Shown here in pieces: positions 35,851 to 40,576 of a stretch of 40,576 nucleotides of DNA (position 1 is the stretch's first letter; the number at the start of each line of letters is the position of its first letter). The notes below the pieces were generated by a model. It saw only the letters and a list, made by a program, of their open reading frames with translations. It was not told the DNA's origin and searched no databases. A program made the translations under genes and the position numbers. The stretch spans positions 1 to 40,576 of the forward strand of contig JALHTG010000048.1 in NCBI GenBank assembly GCA_022865705.1. Direction: 5' to 3'. The stretch comes from Candidatus Bathyarchaeota archaeon. Lineage in GTDB: Archaea > Thermoproteota > Bathyarchaeia > 40CM-2-53-6 > JALHTG01.

Positions 35851-37389
35851 TTAGCCCTGATATGACTTCAACATCAATTCAGCCAAGTCATATACTTGGA
35901 TTTGCTCGTATCCCAGCTCTTTCAATATGTCACGTATTTGGATATAGCAGAATGGGCATTGAGTTACACATGCCTTGGCGCCTGAGTTTATGATAAACTC
36001 TCCTTTTCTTCTAGCGATCATCATGGAAAAATCTCGTTCACCAGCTCGCACTCCCCCACCAGCTCCACAGCATCTGTCCGGTTCCTCCATTTCCACGTAG
36101 TTGACACCTGGGATTTTTGTCATGAGATTCTGAAGATCCAATGGTGCCTCTAGCCCTCTGTTCAGGTGGCATGGATTGTGCAACGTAGCTTTGACGTTGA
36201 TTGTCTTCATATCTTTCACGTTCAGATCTGTGTTTCTTGACAGGTATTGTGCAACATGCATGGTTTCGAATCCGAGTCTTCTTTCGATAAGTTCAGGATA
36301 GTTGTTTCTGATCGTCATGGCACATCCGGGGCAACCTGTAACGACAGTCTTGACTCCTAGTTCTTCAAGGATTCTCACATTCTTAGGAACTAATTTCTCC
36401 TTTGCTTGTTCGACTAGGCCCACCCTAAGAAGCGGTGAGCCACAACATGTGAATTCCGACGGTATGACGACCTCAATGTTGTTTCTTGTCAGAATCTCTA
36501 TGATAGCTTTTCCAGTTTCCTGAAGTCTATAGTCGGTTAGACAGCCAGGGAAGTATCCCACGGTGTCTTTTGGGTTCTTGACTCTTGCAGCATATCCAGT
36601 CTTTACCATTTCCAGCAGCGATGTTCCTATCTTGTCGACGGTTCGACCAAACTTCAACGCTCTGCTTGTGAACTCCTCATGTCCTGGCAGAGGTCCCAGC
36701 CCGGTCTTGGCTACAACGGCCCTCATTTTCTCGATAGCTTTCTCAGGGATGTTGATTTCCTTTGGACACACTTCCACACATGCTCTGCACGTAGTGCACT
36801 TGTATATGCCTTCGATGAACGCCTCTCTCACTCGGTCTTCTTCGTTTCTCTTGTCAAACTGAAGTCGTGCCAGTTTAGCGTGGAACATGGGGCCTGAAAA
36901 CTCTTGCCACGCTTCTATGACCGCCGGGCATGCGGAGATGCATGCCCAGCACTCAATGCACTCCCGGACCTCTTTGATTGGTACGATTTCATCAGCATGA
37001 ACTATTTCAGGTCTCGATGCTTTCTTGGTCCTCTTCACGTACGGGTTCATTCGTTGGATTCTTCTCTCCCCTCTTTCCAAGTCTACAACTAGGTCCTTTA
37101 CAACTGGGAATTGCAGAAGTGGTCTGAGAGTGATGCCTTTTCCTTTCTCTACCGCTGTTCGGCAAGCTATCCTGGGCTTCCCGTTTATTATGACGGCACA
37201 AGACCCACACTGCCCTGCACGACACGCCCAACGATATGCGAGAGTGCCATCGATCTTGTCGTGAACATGGTGTAGAGCATCCAGTACGACCATTCCTTCA
37301 GCGTAGGGAATCTCGTATGTCTTGAAGCTCGGTTCCTTGTCTACGTCCGGATCATATCGGAAGATCTTCGCCTTGATTGTCTCAACCAT
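35851..37389 (-). CDS. tfrB: Thiol:fumarate reductase-like subunit B (SdhB-HdrB fusion)
   Basis: A 512-residue Fe-S protein with the TfrB architecture. A plant-type 2Fe-2S domain has C56, C61, C64, C76. A double-cluster ferredoxin domain has C144, C147, C150, C154 and C198, C201, C204, C208. The C-terminal half carries two CCG domains like HdrB (FTCCGSPLLR, CHLNR, CCGAGGGVR). In methanogens TfrAB reduces fumarate with coenzymes M and B. No methanogenesis genes are visible here, so the thiol donor is unknown. ATG at 37389 lies 4 nt after the distal tfrA stop, with GGGGATG upstream. Confidence 0.92.
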   Translation of the reverse strand: MVETIKAKIFRYDPDVDKEPSFKTYEIPYAEGMVVLDALHHVHDKIDGTLAYRWACRAGQCGSCAVIINGKPRIACRTAVEKGKGITLRPLLQFPVVKDLVVDLERGERRIQRMNPYVKRTKKASRPEIVHADEIVPIKEVRECIECWACISACPAVIEAWQEFSGPMFHAKLARLQFDKRNEEDRVREAFIEGIYKCTTCRACVEVCPKEINIPEKAIEKMRAVVAKTGLGPLPGHEEFTSRALKFGRTVDKIGTSLLEMVKTGYAARVKNPKDTVGYFPGCLTDYRLQETGKAIIEILTRNNIEVVIPSEFTCCGSPLLRVGLVEQAKEKLVPKNVRILEELGVKTVVTGCPGCAMTIRNNYPELIERRLGFETMHVAQYLSRNTDLNVKDMKTINVKATLHNPCHLNRGLEAPLDLQNLMTKIPGVNYVEMEEPDRCCGAGGGVRAGERDFSMMIARRKGEFIINSGAKACVTQCPFCYIQIRDILKELGYEQIQVYDLAELMLKSYQG

Positions 37390-37393
37390 TTCT

Positions 37394-39113
37394 TTACATC
37401 CCCGCAGGCTTTAGCAAAGTCACAGCCACAGGATTCTTCTTGAATACCATTTTGCCATTCTCCTGTTTCACTGTGATATTCACAAACCAGATCCTGTTGT
37501 CCGTCTTTGGAAAGTCTCTTCGGAAGTGGGCTCCTCGGCTCTCTTCTCTCATAAGAGCCGCTCTCGCTATCATATCAGCCGTAAGAACCATGTTCTCAAT
37601 CTCAAGCGCTTCAATCAACTCGTGGTTATATCTCGTTCCTGTACCTGTAACATATAGTTGAGGTATCTGCTCCTTCTGAATCTTTTCGATCTATAGAACC
37701 GCTTCTTGGAGCTCATCACGATTTCTGAATATGCCTACCTTGTTCCACATCAGCTCTGCAAGCCTTGTCTTGATTTGAACTGGCCTTACCCCTTTCCTTC
37801 TCTCGATGAAGCTTTTGATATGCTTGGCCTCTTTCTCGACGTCTTTGCGATCTAAGGATACGTGTCCGTTGCTCTTCGCGCATTTCGCAGCGTTCTCTCC
37901 AGCTCTCTTTCCAAAAACTTGAGTGTCAAGAAGAGCATTTCCACCAAGACGGTTTCCCCCTTGGATCCCTCCCGCGACTTCACCCGCTGCCCAGAGTCCT
38001 TTGAGATCGGTTGCTGCATCCTCGTCAACAAAAAGCCCTCCCATCAGATGGTGCGCCGTCGGAGCAACCTCCATTGGTTCTTTGCGTATATCCACGCCTG
38101 TGTCCAAGAACTGGGTGAGCATCGTTTTCAATCGTGTTTCGATGACATGCGGGTCAACGTGAGCCACGCTTAGGTAGACCCCACCGTGCGGTGTTCCTCT
38201 TCCTTCGAGAACTTCGGTGGCAATAGATCGCGCAACAACATCCCTAGCTGCCAGTTCTAGGTTGGGGTCATACCTTTTCATGAAGCGCTCATTGTCTTTG
38301 TTCATGAGTATTCCTCCTTCTCCTCTAACCGCCTCAGTCACCAGAATGCCCCGAGCAGATTCTGGAACCAGCATTCCGGTGGGATGAAACTGGAACATCT
38401 CCATGTCTATGAGGCTCGCTCCAGCGCGGTAGGCCATTGCATATCCGTCTCCAGTGTCTTGAGCAGCGTTTGAGGTAAACTTGTAAATGCGACCCGTACC
38501 TCCGGCTGCAAGAACAGTTGCTTTGGATTTGAGAAGAAGGAAATCGCTCGTCTTGTAATCGATGCCGAATGCGCCCGCAACTCTGCCGTTTGCCAGCAGA
38601 AGATTTGTGACAAACACCTCTTCCATCACGTCTATGTCTCGGCGTCTGACTTCCTCGGTCAGTGTTGCCATGAACTCATGTCCGGTTCTGTCAGAGGCGT
38701 AGCATGTTCTGCGATAACTCTGTTTTCCAAAAGGTCTTTGCGCTATTTTCCCTTCCGATGTCCGGTCGAAGACGGCACCATACTCTTCGAGATCGAATAT
38801 TCGTTCTGCGCCTTCTTTCACCAGGATCTCAACAAGCTTCTGATTGTTGATCCAGCCTCCTCCCGTGATTGTGTCCTTGAAGTGGACCTCCCAGTTGTCT
38901 TGTGGATCAACATTCCCTAGAGCGACGTTTACTCCTCCCTCAGCCATGCAAGTCTACCCAAGCGTTGCTGCGCTCTTAATGGGCCTTGCCTAACAATTCC
39001 TTGCTGAGGAGAGTAACCTGCACATTGTAGTTTGACGCTTCTATTGCGGCCCTGCTTCCAGCTCCGCCTGCGCCAATGACCAAGACATCGGTCGTGACTG
39101 TTTCAACGGACAT
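37394..39113 (-). CDS. tfrA: Thiol:fumarate reductase-like flavoprotein subunit A, interrupted by a putative intron and an amber codon
   Basis: The SdhA/FrdA/TfrA-type flavoprotein that reduces fumarate at FAD. Exon 1 (39113-38979, 45 codons) has the FAD-binding VLVIGAGGAGSRAA and ends LLGKAH. A 25-nt BHB-like segment (38954-38978) contains a stop and breaks the frame. Exon 2 starts at 38953 and continues T-C-MAEGGVNVALGN. Spliced, this gives 465 residues up to an in-frame TAG at 37691-37693. The same frame then runs 98 more codons with the conserved NHELIEALEIENM and RGAHFRRDFP segments, ending 4 nt before tfrB. Read through, the protein would be about 564 residues, the normal family length. 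The ATG at 38947 alone would lack the FAD motif. A pseudogene with two lesions is the alternative. Confidence 0.85.
37691..37693 (-). other. In-frame amber (TAG) codon inside tfrA
   Basis: The frame reads LQEAVL-TAG-IEKIQKEQ and continues open for 98 codons with family-typical sequence. In SdhA relatives this position is usually Lys or Glu, one substitution from TAG. TAG ends many other genes in this window (for example at 6072, 8759 and 25714), so general reassignment to pyrrolysine is unlikely. It may be a true nonsense change, readthrough or a sequencing error. Confidence 0.75.
38954..38978 (-). other. Putative BHB intron in the tfrA mRNA, 25 nt
   Basis: The pre-mRNA folds as follows. The outer helix is GCAAG/CUUGC. 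The central 4-bp helix is GCCC/GGGU. The 3' bulge is exactly 3 nt (AGA), the 5' bulge is 5 nt (AUUAA), the inner helix is GAGCG/CGCUU with one G-U pair, and the loop is CAGCAA. Cutting at AU|U and AG|A, the standard endonuclease positions, removes exactly 25 nt. CAU then joins to ACU-UGC-AUG, restoring the GKAHT-x-MAEGG motif in frame. The junction follows the His that aligns with the FAD-linked His of SdhA. Confidence 0.78.
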
Positions 39114-39201
39114 TAGGGTTCACACCTAGCCACCTTGTCTAATCATCCGGCCGCTACCCAATACCCTGCAAATATGTAAAGGTTAGCAGGAGAGTTGAGT
39201 T

Positions 39202-39807
39202 CTATTGTGAAACACCCAGAGTCTTCAGGATCTCAGCTCGTTTCTCTTGCGCTAAACCCTGAATGATGTCGTGAAGATTCTTTCCCTGTGAGTCGATTGT
39301 GACAGCCAAAGGACCGAATTCCTCAACTTCCAGTATCCAAAGAGCTTCAGGCATCCCCAGATCATACCACTCAACACCTTTCACTTCCTTGATTCTCTGA
39401 GAAGCTAGAACTGCCGCGCCTCCTGTGAAGTCACAGTATATCACACCGAATTTCTTCGCAGCTTCAGCCGTCTTGGCACCCATGCCAGCCTTCCCAACAA
39501 TGATTCGAGGTTTCAATCGTTCGATGAATTCTGCCTCATAAGATTCCATTCTCGTGCTTGTCGTCGGCCCAGCTGCTACAATCTTCCATTTGTCACCCGC
39601 TTTCGCGGCTATAGGTCCACAGTGAAATACTATGTTTCCATCGAAGCTTACAGGGATCGGTTTCCCTGCTCTTGCGTACTCCAGCGCCCTCCTGTGAGCT
39701 TGATCTCTGGCAGTAATCATGAGTCCGCTAACGTAAACTGAATCTCCTATGCGAGGTTTCCTGACATCTGTTTCGCCTATCGGTGTCCTGAACTTGAACG
39801 TGGCCAT
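39202..39807 (-). CDS. Class I fumarate hydratase, beta (C-terminal) subunit
   Basis: A 201-residue swivelling-domain subunit of the two-part Fe-S fumarase, which interconverts malate and fumarate. FHCGPIAAK, AAGPTTSTRMESYEAEF and VGKAGMGAKT are the conserved substrate-binding segments, and EVEEFGPLAVTIDSQG closes the domain. ATG start with GGAGGAAATG upstream, 12 nt after the alpha-subunit stop. The sister tartrate dehydratase beta subunit is similar, but the operon with fumarate reductase favours fumarase. Confidence 0.93.
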   Translation of the reverse strand: MATFKFRTPIGETDVRKPRIGDSVYVSGLMITARDQAHRRALEYARAGKPIPVSFDGNIVFHCGPIAAKAGDKWKIVAAGPTTSTRMESYEAEFIERLKPRIIVGKAGMGAKTAEAAKKFGVIYCDFTGGAAVLASQRIKEVKGVEWYDLGMPEALWILEVEEFGPLAVTIDSQGKNLHDIIQGLAQEKRAEILKTLGVSQ

Positions 39808-39819
39808 TTCATTTCCTCC

Positions 39820-40576
39820 TTAGGTAATGACCTCCACCTTTCCATTCTTGTGGATTCTTGATGTTGCTCTCCTCGCAGCCCAACACTGCATGTTGATTCC
39901 GACAGGTAGGCTTGCGGTGTGACAGTGGGCATATTCTATGTTTACACCGAGCGAAGTGGTGCTCCCGCCAAGGCCCATCGGCCCTATCCCAGTCATGTTG
40001 GCTCCTTTCAGGAGTTCTTTCTCCAAATTGGCAATTTCCAGCTCTGGATGGGGCTTGTCGATTGGTCTAAGAAGAGCTTTCTTTGCGAGCTTCAATGCGA
40101 TGTCAGCAGATCCTCCTATTCCAACACCGATGATAGTTGGTGGGCACGGCTGGGCTCCAGCCTTGATCACTTGGTCGATTACGAAACGCTTTACTGCCAT
40201 CGCACCCTCTCCTGGCGTGAGCATAGCCAGACTGCTCATGTTCTCTGATCCAGCTCCTTTCGGCATTACAGTAAGCTCGACGTAGTCTCCTTCACCCATG
40301 TCCCAATTCACGTATGGCATATTCGTTCCAGTGTTGTCTCCGCTGTTCTTTCTTGTCAGTGGATGCACAGCATTCGGTCTCAGTGGAACTTCCGTAGTAG
40401 CGGTTTTGACCGCCCTGTTCAGAGTCGCTGGAACAAAGGAGACATCGCCAAAGTCCTTTCCTACGGTAACGTAGAACAGTATCACCCCAGTGTCCTGACA
40501 GATTGGTGTCTCTTTTCCCTCGCCCAAGTTGATGTTGTCAAGTATTGCTCTCAATTGGGTTTTTGCAGTCTCAGAA
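39820..40576 (-). CDS. Class I fumarate hydratase, alpha (N-terminal) subunit, 5' end outside the window
   Basis: The catalytic Fe-S subunit, incomplete because the frame stays open to the right edge. Upstream of the TTG at 40554 the frame continues as SETAKTQLRAILDNI, the usual internal fumarase sequence, so the true start lies beyond 40576. The cluster Cys are in PICQDTG, AQPCPPTIIGVG and EYAHCHTASLPVG. GGSTTSLGVNIEYAHCHTA and the ending ATSRIHKNGKVEVIT match the family. It heads the visible part of the fumarase-TfrAB operon. Confidence 0.93.
   Translation of the reverse strand, partial: SETAKTQLRAILDNINLGEGKETPICQDTGVILFYVTVGKDFGDVSFVPATLNRAVKTATTEVPLRPNAVHPLTRKNSGDNTGTNMPYVNWDMGEGDYVELTVMPKGAGSENMSSLAMLTPGEGAMAVKRFVIDQVIKAGAQPCPPTIIGVGIGGSADIALKLAKKALLRPIDKPHPELEIANLEKELLKGANMTGIGPMGLGGSTTSLGVNIEYAHCHTASLPVGINMQCWAARRATSRIHKNGKVEVIT

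Follow-up and report, generated by a model that had tools for sequence, protein, structure and literature searches.

The closest described relatives of the locus reported here include the archaeal tRNA introns, which have the same BHB geometry and the same enzymes as we propose for tfrA, the difference being that the host RNA, unlike tfrA, is untranslated. For mRNA, the accessible sections of PMC7714728 count one additional BHB intron reported to date, that of cbf5, and add a case of their own, HVO_1309 of Haloferax volcanii; the latter is an mRNA BHB cut by the splicing endonuclease, as proposed here for tfrA, but it is situated in the 5′ UTR and interrupts no frame. The cbf5 pre-mRNA intron is described, in the available text of PMC2738675, as 16–44 nt long, mostly an unconventional BHB, linked to a hetero-oligomeric endonuclease, and gained and lost in lineages; it is reported there for Desulfurococcales and Sulfolobales only, splitting the catalytic Asp codon after its first letter. 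One type of endonuclease is the heterotetramer, which in crenarchaea is linked to broad or relaxed cleavage (accessible parts of PMC12397907 and PMC2738675). Within the literature searched, so far as the text of its sources was available, BHB introns inside the coding part of a gene are found in one other archaeal gene only, cbf5. The original prediction for this DNA had also named cbf5 as the established case of an archaeal mRNA intron, in agreement with the accessible parts of PMC7714728 and PMC2738675, and a cbf5 insert is present in the genome studied here as well.

The window, by which we mean the whole 40,576-nucleotide stretch of DNA that was analysed, contains tfrA, the thiol:fumarate reductase flavoprotein gene, interrupted by 25 nt that are very probably a BHB-type archaeal pre-mRNA intron. 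What leads us to favour this reading is a relative with another, dissimilar insert in exactly the same place, which can be folded as a BHB and would give the same spliced peptide. In common with the cbf5 intron of Desulfurococcales and Sulfolobales, the tfrA candidate is short, lies in a coding gene at a catalytic or cofactor codon, and forms a relaxed BHB with a cut predicted between bulge nucleotides 2 and 3. It differs in belonging to another gene and another class and in being rarer (two genomes), and also in phase, the cbf5 intron being phase 1 within an Asp codon and the tfrA intron phase 0 after a His codon; the tfrA intron is, moreover, a prediction from sequence. It would work like the cbf5 intron but is not the cbf5 intron.

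Results

Anatomy of the insert in tfrA

All features of tfrA lie on the minus strand. Exon 1 (38979–39113) is an open frame of 45 codons extending from the GAGGAG dinucleotide-binding motif to GKAH; the minus strand from 39113 reads MSVETVTTDVLVIGAGGAGSRAAIEASNYNVQVTLLSKELLGKAH, and the next codon is TAA, so that in the unspliced gene a stop directly follows the His codon. We take this codon to be that of the FAD-binding His of E. coli SdhA and FrdA. The 3′ end of exon 1, GGC AAG GCC CAT, is followed by 25 nt (38978–38954) and then by ACT TGC ATG GCT GAG GGA, the continuation frame beginning 25 nt later than homology demands. The original prediction had placed 25 extra nucleotides at 38954–38978, breaking the tfrA frame at the GKAHT motif, and it was right in both coordinates and anatomy: the homology-defined insert, its fold and the restoration of the frame point to a phase 0 intron at 38954–38978, between the His and Thr codons (GKAH, then T). 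Exon 2 up to an in-frame TAG described below (37694–38953, of which 38947–37694 was translated) was compared on its own with 35 NCBIfam families and matches TfrA (NF004900) best, at 620.2 bits over profile positions 48–465 of 546, the whole-protein cut-off being 718. The exon 2 protein aligns with SdhA (1nek), its second residue falling opposite SdhA residue 49.

Folding of the insert together with its flanks provides an outer helix, in which GCAAG of exon 1 (38985–38989) pairs with CTTGC of exon 2 (38948–38952), and a central helix, in which GCCC of exon 1 (38981–38984) pairs with GGGT of the intron (38956–38959). In strict geometry the 5′ bulge is AUU (38978–38980) and the 3′ bulge AGA (38953–38955), with cuts predicted after AU and after AG, that is, between 38979 and 38978 and between 38954 and 38953 respectively. 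An intron-internal hairpin occupies 38960–38977 and has an AGCG/CGCU stem in the minimum-energy fold. That fold has an energy of −16.0 kcal/mol and leaves five nucleotides unpaired on the 5′ side, whereas the forms with strict 3-nt bulges reach only −9.2 to −9.9 kcal/mol, which makes the BHB of the window a relaxed and not a textbook one. The outer helix, the central helix, the AGA bulge and the inner hairpin had all been predicted and are all found, the 5′ side being relaxed in the minimum-energy fold, and cutting between the second and third bulge positions does restore the frame, giving the predicted spliced peptide GKAHTCMAEGG. A search of 38800–39250 against Rfam gave no match at E ≤ 1, whether to a self-splicing intron (group I or II) or to any other RNA family.

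A different insert at the same codon boundary

Contig DAOVGL010000006.1 of Candidatus Bathyarchaeota archaeon CSMAG_1134 (designated L031, with locus L111 of genome G064 wholly within it) encodes a TfrA 79% identical to that of the window. At the identical codon boundary L031 has a different insert, of 27 nt and with an in-frame TAG, in the sequence GGCAAG GCTC ACA ACGCAACTGAATAGTTGCGT GAGC ACA CTTGC ATG, where the predicted cuts fall after the AC of each ACA. This insert forms a canonical hBHBh′ with an outer helix of 5 bp, a central helix of 4 bp, 3-nt bulges and an inner helix of 7–8 bp, the canonical form having −20.9 kcal/mol as against a minimum of −21.1. Splicing in silico yields GKAHTCMAEGG, the same peptide as in the window, and once the 27 nt are removed the L031 tfrA is open throughout. 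Between the central helices of the window and L031 (GCUC/GAGC in the latter) one pair differs by C-G to U-A with both sides changed, silently so in the exon, where GCC has become GCT and Ala is kept. A further pair differs on one side only, G-U to G-C; the comparison is of two sequences only. The inner hairpins look unrelated. From homology alone the border of the insert is fixed in the window and slides by a few nucleotides in L031, which has short edge repeats. As the two genomes have different inserts at the identical place, both of which can be folded as a BHB and both of which restore the peptide, random insertion does not explain them.

Relatives, selection and transfer

A TfrA-type match is present in 158 of the 256 genomes of the class. 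The question raised with the prediction, whether homologues lack the 25 nt, was put to the seven genomes of the class whose TfrA match reaches 60% identity or more: five are uninterrupted (G203, G074, G218, G013 and G009) and two, G000 (the genome of the window) and G064, have inserts that differ from one another at the same place. Among the loci listed, and on the plus strand of each, the window and L031/L111 are the only ones in which a stop closely precedes the true MAEGG; a stop flagged at L069 proved to be a spurious hit elsewhere and not at the MAEGG border. In a tree of 22 rows both insert holders form one clade (support 100/99) adjoining intronless relatives, and for this reason a single gain is the simplest reading, one that probably took place in a common ancestor of both tfrA genes. 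The outer helix has five of five pairs in both holders and at most four in all 16 intronless homologues with the GKAHT motif (one pair in five of them, two in five, three in five and four in one). HTC is present and the helix reachable by silent changes in three of these 16, which have 3, 3 and 4 pairs.

Between the window and L031, exon 1 is 80% identical (dN 0.12, dS 1.36), the stretch of exon 2 before the TAG has dN 0.13 and dS 1.83, and the part of tfrA after the TAG is 70% identical (dN 0.16, dS 1.54); dS between the two is near saturation, which makes the dN/dS figures rough. On these estimates every part of tfrA is mostly under purifying selection.

Over the corresponding tfrAB regions (window 35851–39113, L031 2856–6089) TfrB is 80% identical, close to the 79% of TfrA; the fumarase subunits next to these regions are 56–57% identical, while the CTP synthase of G000 is 64% identical to that of G064 and 67–71% to those of same-order genomes. 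Because the identity of tfrAB is far above that of the adjacent fumarase and of CTP synthase, we infer that tfrAB has probably moved between orders of the class, carrying the intron along. Mis-binning of the window is unlikely, as its tetranucleotide correlation with 20 stretches of G000 is 0.87–0.97 and its CTP synthase is closest to those of same-order genomes. A TGA flagged in the CTP synthase of G213 is the natural stop.

A second lesion and the neighbouring genes

The window tfrA also has an in-frame TAG at 37691–37693, where L031 has a Glu codon, with no change in length; beyond it the frame continues through 98 open codons to TAA (37394–37690) and aligns to L031. A BHB intron at this TAG was considered and rejected, there being no length difference to L031. 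The TAG could have arisen by nonsense mutation not long ago, could be polymorphic, or could reflect a fault of the assembly, and the window copy may be dead, mis-assembled or without a full-length TfrA product. This stop was overlooked in the original prediction, whose reading of the 25 nt as a BHB intron is supported by the relatives, although full-length TfrA from this copy is open to doubt. What the TAG weakens is the case for a functional window copy; the case for the intron is unaffected.

Downstream lies tfrB (35851–37389), with 520.8 bits against NF004898 (TfrB; cut-off 385). On the other side of tfrA are the beta subunit of a fumarase-type hydratase (39202–39807; TIGR00723, 212.7 bits against a cut-off of 145.15, the fumarate hydratase equivalog being below its cut-off) and a fumarase alpha subunit that is cut by the window end (39820–40575; NF004885, 322.7 bits against 276); these three genes are likewise on the minus strand. 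Elsewhere in the same genome, G000:C70:1752–2747 encodes another relative of the flavoprotein, which shares 36% identity with TfrA.

Chance controls

Taken by itself the fold energy of the window insert is mildly unusual, with a z of −1.79 and 10 of 200 shuffles equally good. When the 25-mer was shuffled with the exons and the outer helix held fixed, a 4-bp central helix arose at the exact border in 1.5% of 200,000 trials, and 0.02% had at least four inner pairs as well, the window itself having three in strict geometry. The corresponding values for the L031 27-mer were 1.5% and 0.01%, and the L031 inner helix exceeds four pairs.

An unguided scan for BHB motifs with frame fusion, covering the window and 20 further stretches (391,000 of the 2,167,407 bases of G000), returned 78 splice-fusion candidates as a raw, unshuffled count, the tfrA site among them; a version with coding filters returned 27 and a short-intron version 31. 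Those candidates that were inspected by eye seem to be mostly junctions of neighbouring genes. The tfrA site is missing from the filtered output, and these filtered scans are therefore insensitive and say little on the absence of further introns. It had been argued at the outset that a random insertion would hardly combine all these features, and this holds in so far as L031 has a different insert at the same site but not for the motif as such, given the 78 scan candidates and the modest z value. The BHB motif alone is neither rare nor decisive; what decides is the position fixed by homology, together with the second genome. A copy of the intron core at G000:C43:198–218 (L259), matching at 18 of 21 positions with 3 mismatches and situated in a transposase-like frame (named by eye), was set aside as probably due to chance.

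Inserts in cbf5

In the cbf5 gene of G000 (L204, G000:C37:22423–23394) the catalytic Asp codon is split after its first letter by 21 nt that include an in-frame TAG, at the position given for the crenarchaeal intron in PMC2738675; the outer helix is imperfect (3 of 5 pairs). A set of 54 cbf5 loci from the class was examined, six from the search of seven genomes, 28 from the best-scoring 30 of the search of 256 genomes (two being shared) and 20 chosen for stops or truncation; it is not a random sample, and within it 24 loci have an insert of 18–36 nt exactly at the known cbf5 intron position, 22 have none and 8 were unparsed. The insert-bearing loci include L205–L207, L217, L229, L230 and L233–L235. 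For the 22 inserts tabulated, which leave out G071 and G073 (insert identical to that of G072), the central helix is CCCT/GGGG, CCCT/AGGG, CTCT/AGAG, CCTT/AAGG or CCTT/GAGG, with one mismatched row (G188), and the outer helix is broken in some rows. As judged from these alignments the cbf5 central helix covaries across the class inserts. They resemble the tfrA intron in genome and size class and in forming a BHB, with a covarying central helix, but have no sequence likeness to it by eye. Our literature search, outside whose coverage most subscription journals lie, found no report of a cbf5 intron in this class, and the class inserts widen the range of the known cbf5 case.

Splicing enzymes

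Two tRNA-endonuclease paralogues (PF01974) are encoded in G000, one in a frame of 203 aa, where Y, H and K of the catalytic site are retained as judged by eye, and one in a frame of 176 aa, from which these residues have been lost. By sequence the pair fits a heterotetrameric endonuclease. There is also an RtcB match of 591.9 bits. In G064 (83% complete) one endonuclease paralogue was found, structural by eye, and the catalytic subunit and RtcB were not detected; RtcB was likewise not detected in G009, which is 97% complete.

Discussion

The insert could be viewed as damage, a small insertion and the TAG at 37691 having turned tfrA into a pseudogene, with the BHB a coincidence. Such a view would accommodate two lesions in one gene, the frequency of the BHB motif in the unguided scan and the presence in G000 of the 36% identical flavoprotein frame, but we consider it unlikely, since two genomes have different inserts at the same codon boundary and both splice to the conserved motif, since dN/dS is low throughout tfrA, the stretch after the TAG included, and since the L031 gene is open throughout without its 27 nt. 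The window copy by itself may have died recently, which would leave the intron standing. Somewhat less probable again is a programmed translational bypassing, or hop, over the insert, of the kind exemplified by phage T4 gene 60. The hairpin within the insert, the stop directly after the take-off codon in the window and the matching take-off and landing triplets in L031 (CAC and CAC) are all compatible with a hop; however, the window has TAG immediately ahead of the resumption codon, which does not match CAT, the helices of both genes are formed between exon and intron with the geometry of a BHB, and splicing enzymes are present in G000.

We give little credence to two separate short proteins, or a restart at the exon 2 ATG, with the insert acting as an intergenic spacer. 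An ATG does begin MAEGG in the window, and a Met is found there in most of the relatives listed, but the product of a restart would be without the dinucleotide-binding start of the protein, the relatives make one chain, and a spacer needs neither a BHB structure nor in-frame rejoining. Recoding of stops as pyrrolysine, whereby the 27 nt of L031 and the TAG of the window would simply be translated, is scarcely credible in spite of the L031 insert being a multiple of three with a TAG and the second lesion in the window being a TAG also: PylS matches lie far below the cut-off of 178.15 bits (20.7 in G000, 24.9 in G064), TAG is the terminator of 15 of the 30 other frames tabulated as genes, and the insert in the window opens with TAA and throws the sequence out of frame.

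If the insert is, as we favour, a BHB intron, the last part of exon 1 would pair with the 3′ end of the intron and the beginning of exon 2 to form the BHB in the tfrA transcript, both bulges would be cut by a splicing endonuclease of two subunits, and RtcB would join the exons in frame to give GKAHTCMAEGG, from which full TfrA would be translated. From unspliced mRNA a 45-aa fragment would be made, translation stopping directly behind the His codon of the FAD site. A further protein-coding gene, in which the introns of two genomes have diverged yet match in structure, would mean that archaeal mRNA splicing is no single-gene curiosity, and the origin and movement of such introns would become testable. 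Gene callers would miss the tfrA intron, because the mechanical open frames there are two fragments of 45 aa and 418 aa. We put forward only tentatively, and with more doubt than conviction, a wider programme of pre-mRNA splicing by the tRNA endonuclease, in which metabolic genes, in addition to cbf5, would gain tiny BHB introns at cofactor or catalytic codons, these would spread by horizontal gene transfer, and splicing would gate the synthesis of active fumarate reductase.

The tRNA genes of G000 offer a further observation. Matches spanning more than 90 nt make up 15 of 19, long variable arms explaining some of these, and the ARAGORN intron calls are patchy. Some of the matches, L169 and L175 for example, look interrupted. 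Inspection of 12 long matches for a BHB (two of them cut off-centre) gave hits in five, of which one is convincing, a 19-nt BHB intron in the tRNA at L169.
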